Source of the DNA: Nocardioides alkalitolerans DSM 16699
Lineage (GTDB): Bacteria > Actinomycetota > Actinomycetes > Propionibacteriales > Nocardioidaceae
Direction of reading: 5' to 3'
DNA: 64,000 bases
NCBI RefSeq assembly: GCF_000426525.1
Contig: NZ_AUFN01000013.1
Span: 62,001 to 126,000 of the forward strand
In this document: positions 9,667-47,670 of the stretch, piece after piece
Position numbering within the stretch: position 1 is the stretch's first letter
How the letters are laid out: every line of letters starts with the position of its first letter
Notes under the pieces: generated by a model
What the model was told of the DNA's origin: nothing
Database searches by the model: none
Seen by the model: the letters and a program-made list of their open reading frames with translations, nothing else
Made by a program: the position numbers and the translations under genes

Positions 9667-9705
9667 CGGGCGGCGCTGGTACGGCGGGGAGTGGGAGTCC
9701 GTGCG

Positions 9706-10085
9706 GTGGTTGAGGAGCGAGCGCCTGCCCGACCTGGTGGTTGAGGAGCGAGCGCCAGCGAGCGTCTCGAAACCACGCGCCCACGGTGGTTGAGCAGGAC
9801 CGCCAGCCCGCCGGTGGTTGAGGAGCGAGCGCCAGCGAGCGTCTCGAAAGCACGCGCCCGCGGTGGTCGAGCAGGACCGCCAGCCCGCCGGTGGTTGAGG
9901 AGCGAGCGCCAGCGAGCGTCTCGAAACCACGCCCAGGGGTGGTGGAGGAGGGCCGCCAGCCCGCCGGTGGTTGAGGAGCGAGCGCCAGCGAGCGTCTCGA
10001 AACCACGGCCCCGGTGGTGGAGAGGAGGGTCGGCAGGCCCGTGCCGGCGTTGGTTGAGGAGGGCCGCTAGGCCCGACTCGAAACC
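9706..10085. repeat. Cluster of 40-bp interspersed palindromic repeats
   Basis: Four near-identical 40-bp copies lie at 9737-9776, 9814-9853 (one mismatch in the last arm), 9891-9930 and 9967-10006, with period 76-77 bp. Each begins GTGGTTGAGGAGCGAGCG and ends GTCTCGAAACCAC, so the ends GTGGTT and AACCAC are complementary. The 37-bp spacers are themselves alike (CACGGTGGTTGAGCAGGACC). A partial copy starts at 9706 and a degenerate one (10052-10085) abuts the downstream HNH unit. The 523-bp gap between genes here holds only this cluster and the HNH promoter. It resembles REP/RAYT-type extragenic palindromes, not CRISPR. Confidence 0.85.
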
Positions 10086-10160
10086 ACCCCCTTTTCGGCA
10101 ATCGAAGGCCTCTTGACCTGGTCAAACAGTTATCCCCAGATCACTTGCCGACCCTGGCGA

Positions 10161-10176
10161 TCGAACGCGTGATCGA
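10161..10176. promoter_or_regulatory. SOS (LexA) box of 13E12 gene 1
   Basis: TCGAACGCGTGATCGA differs by one base from the actinobacterial SOS box TCGAAC-N4-GTTCGA. It lies 14 bp before the ATG and directly abuts the probable -10 hexamer, so bound LexA would block transcription. The same 16-mer occurs before the second copy. Confidence 0.75.
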
Positions 10177-10177
10177 A

Positions 10178-10183
10178 TAGAAT
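10178..10183 (+). promoter_or_regulatory. Probable -10 element, leaderless promoter
   Basis: TAGAAT ends 6 bp before the ATG at 10190. A start site 6-7 nt after it would coincide with the A of the ATG, giving a leaderless mRNA, and indeed no ribosome-binding site is present. The identical element lies at 46104-46109 in the second unit. Confidence 0.55.
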
Positions 10184-10189
10184 CAGGGC

Positions 10190-11653
10190 ATGAGCCCGAC
10201 CACCGCCACCTCTGAGCGCACCGCCTCCCCGGCCGTGCTGCTCGACGGTGCCCGGGCGGCTCTGGCGCGTCAGCGGGTCGCTGAGGTCGAGGTCCTCCTG
10301 GCGGTCGCGGACTGGGCCGACGCCCACACCGAGGACGGCGTGGTGGCCGACCAGTACGGGCCGTTCGGGTTGCTCCGCGGCGATGCGCATCTCCTGCCGG
10401 GTGCGGACGTGTTCGGCGAGCTCGGTGGTCCGGGCGCGCCGTTGGTGTCGGAGTTCTGCGTCGTGGAGATCGCGGCCGCACTCGGCCTGTCGACCGACTC
10501 CGGTCGCCGGCTGCTCGGTGACGCGGTCGAACTGCGCCACCGCCTCCCGCGGCTGTGGAACCGAGTGACCGCTGGCGTATTGCCCGTGTGGCGGGCTCGG
10601 AAGATCGCGCAGGAGACGACCCAGCTCACGGTCGAGGGCGCGGACTTCGTCGACCGTCACCTCGCACCCGTGGCGCACAAGACCGGGATGGTCACCGCGC
10701 AGAAGCTCGTGGCCGAGGCGATCGCGAGGTTCGACCCCGAGAAGGCCGAGCTCGACCGCGCCGACTCCGACGCCACCCGCCGCTTCGACATCGACCTCCA
10801 GGGCCAGATCGACCCCGCCCGAGGGGTCGTGCCGGTGTCGGGCACCCTCGACCTCGCCGACGCCCTCGACCTCGAGAACGCCGTGTCCCGCGTGGCCGCC
10901 GACCTCGCGCTCGCCGGGTCGCTGGACTCCCTCGACGCACGGCGATCATCCGCGGTCGGTGAGATCGCGCGGCGCCAGACGACGCTCGACCTCAGCGGCT
11001 GCGACAACGCCGACGCTGTGCGGACCACGACGGGCGAGGCCAGCAAACAGACCGGCAGCGACACCGCGCCGGCCGCGACGCGATCGAAGGCCCGCCAGGT
11101 CGTGCTCCACGTCCACCTCGCCGAAGCCGCCCTCACCGACCTGGACCCCAACGCCTGCGGCGGCGTCGACCTCGCCCGTGTCGAGGAGACCCGCAGCTTC
11201 GTGCTCGCCGAGCAGGTCCGCGAATGGTGCAGGTCATCCTTGATGCACGTGGTGGTGAAGCCCGTCATCGACCTGCGCGACCAGGTCGCGGTCGACGCCT
11301 ACGAGATCCCCGACCGGATCGCCGACCGCGTCCGCCTCACCCGACCGACCTGCGTCTTCCCGCACTGCACCCGACCCGCGCGGGGCTGCGACCTCGACCA
11401 TGTCGACGAGTACGTCCCGCCCGACCCGCACCACCCGGGCGGCGGCGGGCCACCAGGTCAGACCTCCACTGCGAACCTCGCCCCACTCTGCCGCCGACAT
11501 CACCGCGTGAAGACCCACCCCTCGCTGAGCGGCACGGGACCCGAGAGACGGTGGCGCTACCGGCGCCTGCCCGACGGATCGTTCGTCTGGACGAGCCCGC
11601 ACGACCAGCAGTACCTCGTCGACCCCCACGGCACGATCGCGCTCCCCGCTTGA
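10190..11653 (+). CDS. 13E12 repeat family DUF222-HNH endonuclease protein, copy 1
   Basis: This 487-residue protein has an N-terminal DUF222 helical domain (about residues 20-330) and a C-terminal HNH nuclease motif with CVFPHCTRPARGCDLDHVDE, then LCRRHHRVKTH, which supplies the Zn-binding cysteines and catalytic histidines. Members of this family are multicopy in actinobacteria and several mycobacterial ones belong to the LexA regulon. Here an SOS box overlaps the promoter. The gene is paralogous to 46116-47597 and shares both flanks with it. A stretch around 10943-11103 is nearly identical between the two copies while neighbouring sequence differs by over 10 percent. The substrate is unknown. 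Confidence 0.93.
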   Translation: MSPTTATSERTASPAVLLDGARAALARQRVAEVEVLLAVADWADAHTEDGVVADQYGPFGLLRGDAHLLPGADVFGELGGPGAPLVSEFCVVEIAAALGLSTDSGRRLLGDAVELRHRLPRLWNRVTAGVLPVWRARKIAQETTQLTVEGADFVDRHLAPVAHKTGMVTAQKLVAEAIARFDPEKAELDRADSDATRRFDIDLQGQIDPARGVVPVSGTLDLADALDLENAVSRVAADLALAGSLDSLDARRSSAVGEIARRQTTLDLSGCDNADAVRTTTGEASKQTGSDTAPAATRSKARQVVLHVHLAEAALTDLDPNACGGVDLARVEETRSFVLAEQVREWCRSSLMHVVVKPVIDLRDQVAVDAYEIPDRIADRVRLTRPTCVFPHCTRPARGCDLDHVDEYVPPDPHHPGGGGPPGQTSTANLAPLCRRHHRVKTHPSLSGTGPERRWRYRRLPDGSFVWTSPHDQQYLVDPHGTIALPA

Positions 11654-11670
11654 ACCTGCCCGCCTGACCG

Positions 11671-11702
11671 CACACCCCGGACGCCAGCGTCCCTGGGGTG
11701 TG
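11671..11702 (+). terminator. Terminator-like hairpin after 13E12 copy 1
   Basis: Outer arms CACACCCC (11671-11678) and GGGGTGTG (11695-11702) enclose inner arms GGACGC and GCGTCC, forming a long GC-rich stem 18 bp after the stop. The corresponding place after copy 2 keeps only a weaker CAGCG/CGCTG stem. Confidence 0.65.
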
Positions 11703-11746
11703 CCGTCATGCCCGAAGAATCGTGACTTCGAGACACTCGCTGCGCC

Positions 11747-11885
11747 CGCTCCTCACCCACCGGACGCACCGCGCCCGCTCCTCACCCACCGGACGCGCTG
11801 CGCTCGCTCCTCACCCACCGGACGCGCTGCGCTCGCTCCTCACCCACCGGCAGCACTGCGCTCGCTCCTCACCCACCGGCCCGAC
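11747..11885. repeat. 29-bp tandem repeat, five copies
   Basis: The unit beginning CGCTCCTCACCCACCGG recurs at 11747, 11776, 11805, 11834 and 11863 with an exact 29-bp period and few changes. It is contiguous with no spacers. Read on the opposite strand each unit is GGTGGGTGAGGAGCGAGCGC, a close relative of the repeat cluster at 9.7-10 kb, so the two arrays belong to one repeat family. It fills the space between the HNH gene and the 3' end of the dedA-like gene. Confidence 0.85.
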
Positions 11886-11899
11886 CCGCGAGCGCGACG

Positions 11900-12511
11900 T
11901 CAATTCCCGCCCACGGCTGCCGCGGCCGCGGCGCTGCGCCGCGTCAGCACCCGGTCGATGACGACCCCCGCCGTGAACCCGACCCCCATGCCGATCACCA
12001 TCGCCAGGATCGGGCGATCGCTGAGCCCGAAGCCGGCGACGGCGCCGATGACGACCGTGAAGGCCGCCCACAGGGAGCAGCCGGCCGTGGCGAGGGGCAG
12101 CCAGGTGCGGTAGCGGAGGGCACCGCCGGCGACGAGGTTGACGCCGATCCGGACGACGGGGAGGAACCGGGCGGTCACGATGACGTGGGGCCCGCGGTCG
12201 CGCACGAGCCGTTCGGCCAGGTCGAGGCCCCGGCCCAGGCGCCGACGTCGGCGCAGCCGCTCCCGGGGCAGCCGGCCACCGATCCAGAACCCGGTGCTGT
12301 CGCCCAGCAACGCTCCGACCACTCCGGCCGCGAACAGGCCCGGCAGCACCCACTGCTCGTCGGAGGCCACCGCGAGCGCAGCGACGGAGATCAGCACCTC
12401 GTCGCTCGGCACGAGCGGGACGAAGCAGTCGGCGTACGTCAGCAGCGCGACCACGACGTACAGCCACGGCGAGTCGAGCAACCCCCGCGCGACGTCGAGC
12501 AGCCCGTCCAT
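11900..12511 (-). CDS. DedA family membrane protein
   Basis: This 203-residue SNARE-associated (DedA/VTT) protein has the family features FVPLVPSDEVLI near residue 29, the GDSTGFWIGGRL segment near 70, and FLPVVRIGVNLVAGG near 117, within about five hydrophobic segments. DedA proteins are membrane proteins tied to lipid carrier flipping and membrane homeostasis. The ATG at 12511 has GGAGGTGGG just upstream. An Ala-rich tail ends in VGGN close to the 29-bp tandem repeat array. It is divergent from the PPOX gene. Confidence 0.9.
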   Translation of the reverse strand: MDGLLDVARGLLDSPWLYVVVALLTYADCFVPLVPSDEVLISVAALAVASDEQWVLPGLFAAGVVGALLGDSTGFWIGGRLPRERLRRRRRLGRGLDLAERLVRDRGPHVIVTARFLPVVRIGVNLVAGGALRYRTWLPLATAGCSLWAAFTVVIGAVAGFGLSDRPILAMVIGMGVGFTAGVVIDRVLTRRSAAAAAAVGGN

Positions 12512-45884: not shown

Positions 45885-46010
45885 GTGGTCGAGAAGGGCC
45901 GCCGGACCCGTCCCCGGTGGTCGAGGAGCGAGCGCCGGGGACACGGCCCGGTGGTGGAGGAGCGAGCGCCGGCGGTGGTTGAGGAGGGCCGCTAGGCCCG
46001 TCTCGAAACC
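45885..46010. repeat. Repeat cluster upstream of 13E12 unit 2
   Basis: Diverged copies of the GGTGGTTGAGGAGCGAGCGCC family lie here (GGTGGTCGAGAAGGGCC, GGTGGTCGAGGAGCGAGCGCC, GGTGGTGGAGGAGCGAGCGCC). The last, 45977-46010, matches the 34-bp repeat at 10052-10085 with one difference and marks the left edge of the shared unit. Confidence 0.75.
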
Positions 46011-46086
46011 GCGACCCCTCTCGGCAGCCGAAGGCCTCCTGACCTGGTCAAACAGTTATCCGCAGATGACCGTCGGGACCTAGCGT

Positions 46087-46102
46087 TCGAACGCGTGATC
46101 GA
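46087..46102. promoter_or_regulatory. SOS (LexA) box of 13E12 gene 2
   Basis: TCGAACGCGTGATCGA is identical to the box before copy 1, at the same distance from the ATG, and abuts TAGAAT at 46104-46109. Conservation of the box while flanking bases vary suggests it is functional. Confidence 0.75.
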
Positions 46103-46115
46103 ATAGAATCGGGGC

Positions 46116-47597
46116 ATGAGCCCGACCACCGCCACCTCCGACCGCACCGCCTTCCCGGCCGTGCTGCTCGACGGTGCCCGGGCGGCGCTAGCACGCCAGC
46201 GCACGGCGGAGGTCGAGGTCCTCGTCGCCGTCGCGGACTGGGCGAACGCCCACACCGAGGGCGGTGAGGTCGCCGACCAGTACGGCCCGTTCGGGCTGCT
46301 CCGTGGCGACGCGCACCTGCTCCCGGGCGCCGATGTGTTCGGGGAGCTCGGCGGACCGGGCGCTCCGTTGGTGTCCGAGTTCTGCGTCGTCGAGATCGCG
46401 GCAGCCCTGGGTCTGTCGACCGACTCGGGTCGCCGGCTCGTCGGCGAGGCGGTCGAGCTGCGCCACCGCCTCCCGCGTCTCTGGAACCGGGTGGTCGACG
46501 GGGTGCTGCCGGCGTGGCGGGCACGGAAGATCGCCCAGGAGACCACCCAGCTCACCCCGGATGGCGCGGAGTTCGTCGACCGCCACCTCGCCCCGGTCGC
46601 GCACAAGACCGGGATGGTCACCGCCCAGAAGCTGGTCGCCGAGGCGGTCGCCCGGTTCGACCCCGAGAAGGCCGAGCTCGACCGCGCCGACTCCGACGCC
46701 ACCCGCCGCTTCGACATCGACCTCCACGGCCAGATCGACCCCACCCGAGGAGTGGTGGCGGTGTCCGGCACCCTCGACCTGGCCGATGCGCTGGACCTGG
46801 AGAACGCCGTGTCCCGCGTGGCCGCTGACCTCGCAGTGGCAGGGTCGCTCGACTCCCTCGACGCACGACGATCATCCGCGGTCGGTGAGATCGCGCGGCG
46901 CCAGACGACGCTCGACCTCAGCGGCTGCGACAACGCCGACGCTGTGCGGACCACGACGGGCGAGGCCAGCAACCAGACCGGCAGCGACACCGCGCCGGCC
47001 GCGACGCGGTCGAAGGCCCGCCAGGTCGTCCTCCACGTCCACCTCGCCGAGGCCGCGCTCACCGACCTCGACCCCAACGTCTGCGGCGGCATCGACCTGG
47101 CTCGGGTCGAGAAGACCCGGAGCTTCGTGCTCGCCGAGCAGGTCCGGGAATGGTGCCGCGCCACCTCGACGCAGGTGGTGGTGAAGCCGGTGATCGATCT
47201 GCGTGACCGGGTCGCGGTCGACGCCTACGAGGTTCCCGACCGGATCGCCGAACGCGTCCGCCTCACGAAGCCCACCTGCGTGTTCCCGCACTGCACGAGG
47301 CCCGCTCGGGGTTGCGACCTCGACCACGTCGACGAATACGTCGCGCCCGACCCGAACCACCCAGGCGACGGCGGGCCACCGGGCCAGACGGCCAACCTCG
47401 CCCCGCTCTGTCGCAGGCATCACCGCGTGAAGACGCACCCTTCGATGAGCGGTGTAGGGCGAGAACGCAGGTGGCGCTACCGGCGCCTACCCGACGGCTC
47501 CTTCATCTGGACGAGCCCGCACGACCACCAGTACCTCGTCGACCCCCACGGCACGATCCCGCTCGCGCCAGACCGCCAGCCTGACAGCGCAGCCTGA
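46116..47597 (+). CDS. 13E12 repeat family DUF222-HNH endonuclease protein, copy 2
   Basis: This 493-residue paralogue of the 10.2-kb gene has the same DUF222 domain and the HNH motif CVFPHCTRPARGCDLDHVDE with LCRRHHRVKTH. All cysteine and histidine ligands are intact, so it should be active if the family is a nuclease. It differs by a few short indels, such as loss of two residues after GQT, and by a longer C terminus. Like copy 1 it has no ribosome-binding site and an SOS box over its promoter. Its downstream flank appears to cut into another gene. Confidence 0.93.
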   Translation: MSPTTATSDRTAFPAVLLDGARAALARQRTAEVEVLVAVADWANAHTEGGEVADQYGPFGLLRGDAHLLPGADVFGELGGPGAPLVSEFCVVEIAAALGLSTDSGRRLVGEAVELRHRLPRLWNRVVDGVLPAWRARKIAQETTQLTPDGAEFVDRHLAPVAHKTGMVTAQKLVAEAVARFDPEKAELDRADSDATRRFDIDLHGQIDPTRGVVAVSGTLDLADALDLENAVSRVAADLAVAGSLDSLDARRSSAVGEIARRQTTLDLSGCDNADAVRTTTGEASNQTGSDTAPAATRSKARQVVLHVHLAEAALTDLDPNVCGGIDLARVEKTRSFVLAEQVREWCRATSTQVVVKPVIDLRDRVAVDAYEVPDRIAERVRLTKPTCVFPHCTRPARGCDLDHVDEYVAPDPNHPGDGGPPGQTANLAPLCRRHHRVKTHPSMSGVGRERRWRYRRLPDGSFIWTSPHDHQYLVDPHGTIPLAPDRQPDSAA

Positions 47598-47670
47598 CGA
47601 ACTGCGCCGTGCCCACGCCTGACCGCACATCTCAGCGACACCACCGCCGCTGGGGTGCGCCGTCATGCCC

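Follow-up and report, generated by a model that had tools for sequence, protein, structure and literature searches.

Multi-copy DUF222–HNH genes of Nocardioides alkalitolerans are parts of a repeat unit with signs of rare insertion and frequent gene conversion within its edges

The DUF222–HNH genes of the soil actinobacterium Nocardioides alkalitolerans DSM 16699 are best explained as SOS-controlled repeat units that are rarely inserted at new sites and frequently converted within their own edges; for this reading in full, including a break made by the HNH protein itself, we estimate a probability of about 0.55. As judged from sequence comparisons, the unit structure, its dispersal and the edge-limited conversion are very probable, and we infer that the HNH protein makes the initiating break. 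In their behaviour the copies resemble a slowly moving, homing-like element, because some have been inserted between genes that are direct neighbours in relatives and because they copy their sequence onto each other.

The genome comprises 4.85 Mb in 16 contigs (C numbers), and the window is the whole stretch of 64,000 nucleotides that was analysed (C5:62001–126000). A genome search with the unit-1 protein recovered 11 close copies (88–92% amino acid identity), one of which is split over two frames (C4:141063–142512), as well as a solo 3′ fragment with its own right end (C5:36850), a second subfamily of four members (44–49% identity) and two divergent single genes. A DUF222 profile search of the same genome added six genes. 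Both multi-copy status and gene conversion are present in the DUF222–HNH family of this genome. Contigs break in or beside units or arrays at the ends of C1, C3 and C10 and at both the start and the end of C5; the copies counted here are therefore a minimum, and the true number is probably higher. Two units lie in the window, with the following parts (positions within the window).

Unit 1, 9705–10047, + strand: left array of further GGTGGTTGAGGAGCGAGCGCCAGCGAGCGTCTCGAAACCAC-type palindromes (repeat-pattern matches)
Unit 1, 10052–10087, + strand: innermost left palindromic repeat, GGCC-core variant (alignment of copies)
Unit 1, 10130–10138, + strand: TTATCCCCA motif, DnaA-box-like (alignment of copies)
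Unit 1, 10161–10176, + strand: SOS-box-like TCGAACGCGTGATCGA, overlapping the promoter (alignment of copies)
Unit 1, 10178–10183, + strand: −10-like TAGAAT (alignment of copies)
Unit 1, 10190–11653, + strand: DUF222–HNH gene, 487 amino acids
Unit 1, 10945–11077, + strand: gene-conversion tract common with unit 2 (27 consecutive polymorphic sites)
Unit 1, 11670–11703, + strand: right-end hairpin (fold z −3.7)
Unit 1, 11702–11713, + strand: conserved right-end tail GCCGTCATGCCC (alignment of copies)
Unit 1, 11726–11879, − strand: right inverted array, GGTGGGTGAGGAGCG type
Unit 2, 45977–46012, + strand: left palindromic repeat (alignment of copies); degenerate repeats extend left to about 45880
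Unit 2, 46056–46064, + strand: TTATCCGCA motif (alignment of copies)
Unit 2, 46087–46102, + strand: SOS-box-like TCGAACGCGTGATCGA (alignment of copies)
Unit 2, 46104–46109, + strand: −10-like TAGAAT (alignment of copies)
Unit 2, 46116–47597, + strand: DUF222–HNH gene, 493 amino acids, 91% identical to unit 1
Unit 2, 46871–47003, + strand: counterpart of the conversion tract (by offset from the gene start; gap-free up to there)
Unit 2, 47624–47659, + strand: right-end hairpin (alignment of copies)
Unit 2, 47659–47670, + strand: right-end tail GCCGTCATGCCC, with unique sequence directly beyond

Alignment of the two units bore out the proposal of the sequence-only reading that they share a left repeat, TTATCC[CG]CA, an SOS-box-like site, a −10, the gene and a right end (CTGGGGTG[TC]GCCGTCATGCCCG). 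This set of edges is not confined to them: alignment with flanks placed the left palindrome, a TTATCC-like motif, the SOS-box-like site and the −10 in all 11 close copies, nine besides units 1 and 2, and the right end also occurs in the solo 3′ fragment. Read from the left, every copy opens with arrayed GGTGGTTGAGGAG... palindromes, of which the one nearest the gene has a GGCCGCTAGGCC-like core. Next come GACCTGGTCAAACAGTTATCCCCAGATC or a variant of it, the SOS-box-like TTCGAACGCGTGATCGAATAGAAT, the ATG and the gene; a hairpin and GCCGTC[AG][TC]GCCC follow in 12 of 12 right ends. Beyond this tail, eight of the 12 right ends run into an inverted GTGGCTTCGAGACGCTCGCTGCGCTCGCTCCTCACCCACC array, intact or degenerate, and the other four, including that of unit 2, into unique sequence. 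All 15 exact genome copies of the right-type repeat lie, inverted, to the right of units of the unit-1 subfamily. The natural unit is thus array, gene, hairpin and optional inverted array. From the alignment of copies, the right edge of the body falls where the sequence-only reading had put it, and the left edge named there is merely the innermost of several repeats. The accompanying claim that sequence differs at once outside the edges holds to the right of unit 2, but not to the left of either unit, where repeat copies continue (9705–10006 at unit 1), nor to the right of unit 1, where a related inverted array follows (11726–11879).

TTATCC[CG]CA, at 10130–10138 and 46056–46064, resembles a DnaA box (TTATCCACA); its counterpart in most relatives is TCCACAG, 5′ of the SOS box. 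Some relatives carry a perfect SOS box (TCGAAC-N4-GTTCGA). With the SOS-box-like site in 11 of 11 copies of our genome, LexA control is predicted for the family.

On the left the unit has no sharp edge, since its palindrome is one of an array of REP-like repeats. The palindrome pattern had 40 exact matches in the genome against none for a reversed control pattern, so the repeat is not due to chance. For 30 of the 40, a DUF222 gene starts no more than 800 bp downstream, in 30 of 30 cases on the palindrome's own strand (P about 1e-64); when clusters are counted instead, the figure is 15 of 24 (P about 1e-31). Eight palindromes are remote from every DUF222 gene start, in part as inverted pairs, and two are at contig ends. 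In the related genome G218, many of 146 matches are away from units, and in G029 four tandem GGTTGAGGAGCGAGCGCAGCGAGCGTCTCGAAACC palindromes with 61-bp spacing (C13, about 12065–12320) have no DUF222 gene within 1.5 kb. The idea that the palindrome is exclusive to the unit was dropped in view of these solo copies and of others in a DUF222-free region. As palindromes occur without the gene in all three genomes, they may be mere neighbours of the unit.

These gene-free solo palindromes and inverted pairs, the position of unit 1 between inverted arrays and the folding of the palindromes as hairpins (z −4.4 for the innermost left palindrome of unit 1, as single strand) would all suit a passenger resembling REP/REPIN repeats, in which the palindromes are moved by another enzyme and the HNH gene is trapped between inverted arrays. 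Against this stand the very strong association between palindrome and DUF222 gene in our genome and the other subfamilies, in which unlike palindromes accompany a similar layout, and we consider such a passenger improbable. The resemblance to REP/REPIN–RAYT systems extends to inverted palindromic repeats around a DNA-processing gene, with solo repeats and inverted pairs elsewhere; the gene here, however, encodes an HNH protein rather than a Y1 transposase (RAYT) and is multi-copy, and in our genome the repeats are mostly near it.

Dispersal was read from sites that are empty in relatives (one genome per species was sampled). The genes flanking the copy at C2:309406–311455 (L010) are 30–91 bp apart in G218, G047 and G197, and those flanking the copy at C1:329662–332586 (L008) are 0–66 bp apart in the same three genomes (0 bp in G047). 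The latter interval also holds a methyltransferase-like neighbour gene; because copies such as this one came with a neighbouring gene, not every insertion is a bare unit. The site of a third copy (L007) measures 28 bp in G218 and G047, whose own unit is 1.3 kb off. As two or three relatives lack each of these three copies, the simplest reading is insertion in the lineage of N. alkalitolerans. An assignment of L007 as a locus orthologous with G047, G217 and G218 (both flanks matched) was rejected on fine mapping, which placed the unit of these genomes about 1.3 kb away and found the L007 spot empty.

Of these three related species (G047, G217 and G218), two carry a unit that is missing from the third, in which 3 bp separate the flanks; the right junction of this unit directly follows the hairpin and GCATGCCC. 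Two further units are present in one of the three and absent from another, one of the empty sites containing solo array repeats. Empty sites in G047 (L191; C1:3946747–3946835) and G218 (L192; C1:1046355–1046534) contain another inverted repeat (GGAAAGGGKCACGAACG...CGTACGTGACCCTTTCC), and a third palindrome family (GGACGTCATGC...GCATGACGTCC) lies near two of the empty sites of these species. An additional gene of about 0.8 kb follows a unit found only in G218 (L141; C1:4068450–4069318); G047 lacks this gene too, which could have been carried along or inserted beside the unit. At the empty sites read, we saw no target-site duplication and no shared target sequence.

The flanks of unit 1 map to 1.07 and 1.37 Mb in G218 and those of unit 2 to 1.44 and 4.18 Mb; as the two neighbours of each are not adjacent there, no empty site is shown for either unit. 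Several units are at synteny breaks relative to G218 (units 1 and 2, and L002 at C2:870651–879435), and chromosomal rearrangements may stem from recombination between units. The suggestion of a defined dispersing unit stands in part: edges are shared, three sister copies occupy sites that are empty in relatives and similarity stops at the edges, but the left edge has no fixed terminus, the palindrome also occurs gene-free and target-site duplications were not seen.

A constant right end across copies and the existence of empty sites could also point to a classical DNA transposon with the DUF222–HNH protein acting as transposase and the hairpins marking its ends. We saw no target-site duplication, however, the left end is a variable array, the right array is missing at four of 12 ends and turnover in G047, G217 and G218 is slow. 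As the sequence-only reading had noted, the unit holds no transposase gene besides the DUF222–HNH gene, and this protein matched no transposase family or fold; the unit lacks the hallmarks of DDE, Y1 or serine transposons, and we regard a classical transposon as extremely improbable.

The same three species show how the copies change in place. Each carries 10–13 copies, and 12 loci are common to at least two of them (11 by both flanks and the twelfth by its right flank). At these loci, gene identity is no higher for the same locus across species (83.2%) than for different loci (83.3%), and within-genome paralogues reach 86.8%; flanking DNA of the syntenic loci is mostly 88–96% identical. In 35 of 35 cases, the most similar copy came from the same genome rather than from the syntenic locus. 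In the protein tree, copies group by genome, with many weak inner forks. Up to the right tail, paralogues are 85% and syntenic copies 80% identical; beyond it, paralogues fall to background (61–64%) against 70–82% for syntenic copies. On the left, similarity switches at the palindrome, about 200–100 bp upstream of the ATG. Because paralogue similarity stops at the unit edges, gene conversion is confined to the unit.

Conversion has also left traces in N. alkalitolerans, where a permutation test identified over-long shared tracts in three pairs of copies after correction, among them units 1 and 2 with a tract of 133 bp. None of the copy pairs exceeds 92.5% DNA identity, and thus no very recent duplication is visible. 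In the three related species, most units are not products of recent spread but old and syntenic, and gene conversion has kept them alike.

Such old loci raise the possibility of a passive multigene family: ancient paralogues of an SOS nuclease, subject to ordinary RecA-dependent conversion and chance ectopic duplication, in which the HNH protein serves repair or stress responses and not its own spread. The 12 loci syntenic across the three species fit such a family, conversion alone can explain the within-genome similarity, DUF222 genes occur in 215 of the 219 genomes of the genus searched and the M. tuberculosis genes have been suggested to act in repair. It accounts less well for lineage-specific insertions with constant right ends, for unit positions that differ between our genome and G047, G217 and G218, and for palindromes and hairpin ends in multi-copy families: all family copies have the edges, whereas the single-copy DUF222 genes of our genome are without the right-end hairpin element. 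Overall, we judge a passive family to be possible but unlikely.

Assignment to the DUF222–HNH family was based on profiles. Both the unit-1 and the unit-2 gene have a DUF222 domain (PF02720) above the curated cut-off. HNH was matched by Pfam in 16 of 32 aligned members, and cysteine and histidine residues in the C-terminal part are invariant; the unit-1 protein itself scores below the Pfam HNH model, with weak phage HNH profiles spanning residues 379–445. A predicted structure (mean pLDDT 73) had no significant match in a fold search of the PDB, a profile search of PDB sequences yielded nothing significant and neither PADLOC nor NCBIfam gave a match. In-frame TGA codons in several copies of G037 and G153 had suggested recoding, which was rejected after translation showed TGA to be the normal C-terminal stop.

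Similar layouts recur in other species; in several of the searches, scoring covered the few best candidates of each genome. The nearest relatives have families of their own (47–65% identity), and many of these pair palindromes or arrays of their own on the left with a hairpin plus GC[AG][TC]G[CT]CC on the right; families in G102/G016 and G041 are without such a right end. The second subfamily of our genome ends in a hairpin and GGC[AG]CGCCC. Among named GTDB genomes, the unit-1 family has no close relative, the sole relative being one of 42% in Nocardioides halotolerans, and plasmid and phage collections contained no close relative either, so recent transfer by known plasmids or phages is without support. 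A more ambitious interpretation, which we hold only tentatively and consider doubtful, is that of a new kind of homing element acting within actinobacterial genomes: an HNH nuclease induced by the SOS response would recognize lineage-specific palindromes or hairpin ends and drive both spread and homogenization, nuclease and palindrome diverging together by species.

The closest known counterparts are the REP13E12 loci of M. tuberculosis, which are enriched for gene conversion and without defined function (PMC13061034); 13E12 HNH genes are LexA targets there (PMC4181829), and one gene, Rv3776, is strongly induced by moxifloxacin (PMC7911356). Like the units described here, REP13E12 comprises a multi-copy, LexA-linked DUF222–HNH gene that is a hot spot of conversion between copies. 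The present units differ in that palindromic arrays on their left, a hairpin common to their right ends, lineage-specific insertions at sites that are empty in relatives, and homogenized syntenic loci are documented. We found no paper on unit edges, empty sites or palindromic arrays of DUF222–HNH genes (few subscription papers were covered).

Homing endonuclease genes are copied by repair into sites that lack them, and diverge fast and are homogenized; insertion at sites empty in relatives and homogenization, as would be expected of an HNH-type homing endonuclease, are seen here, but our units are multi-copy per genome, lie in no intron or intein and have no interrupted allelic target that we could find. 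In IS200/IS605 elements, IscB is an HNH nuclease whose gene lies near hairpin ends and which promotes retention by recopying; here, unlike in IscB/TnpB systems, no TnpA and no RuvC domain were seen.

For the lineage-specific family of SOS-controlled units that we favour, the following course can be proposed. DNA damage would lift LexA repression of the unit promoter, and the HNH enzyme would then cut a unit or the DNA close to it, or else a related palindrome that has no unit. RecA-dependent repair would copy the fixed body, from the innermost left palindrome to the right hairpin and GCCGTCATGCCC, from another unit. Most events would be conversions that refresh an existing copy; a rare event at a palindrome-only or short-homology site would create a new one. 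This mode would be nearer to homing endonucleases or to the IscB/TnpB retention nucleases than to a transposase.

DUF222 genes, to which the REP13E12 loci of M. tuberculosis also belong, are among the most repeated genes of the genus studied here, but still lack a proven function. Because the units have sharp edges, empty sites that can be read and syntenic loci that homogenize within each species, the 'repeat family' becomes something testable, namely a damage-induced, self-copying nuclease, which, if real, would explain both the conversion hot spots and the assembly breaks at such loci.
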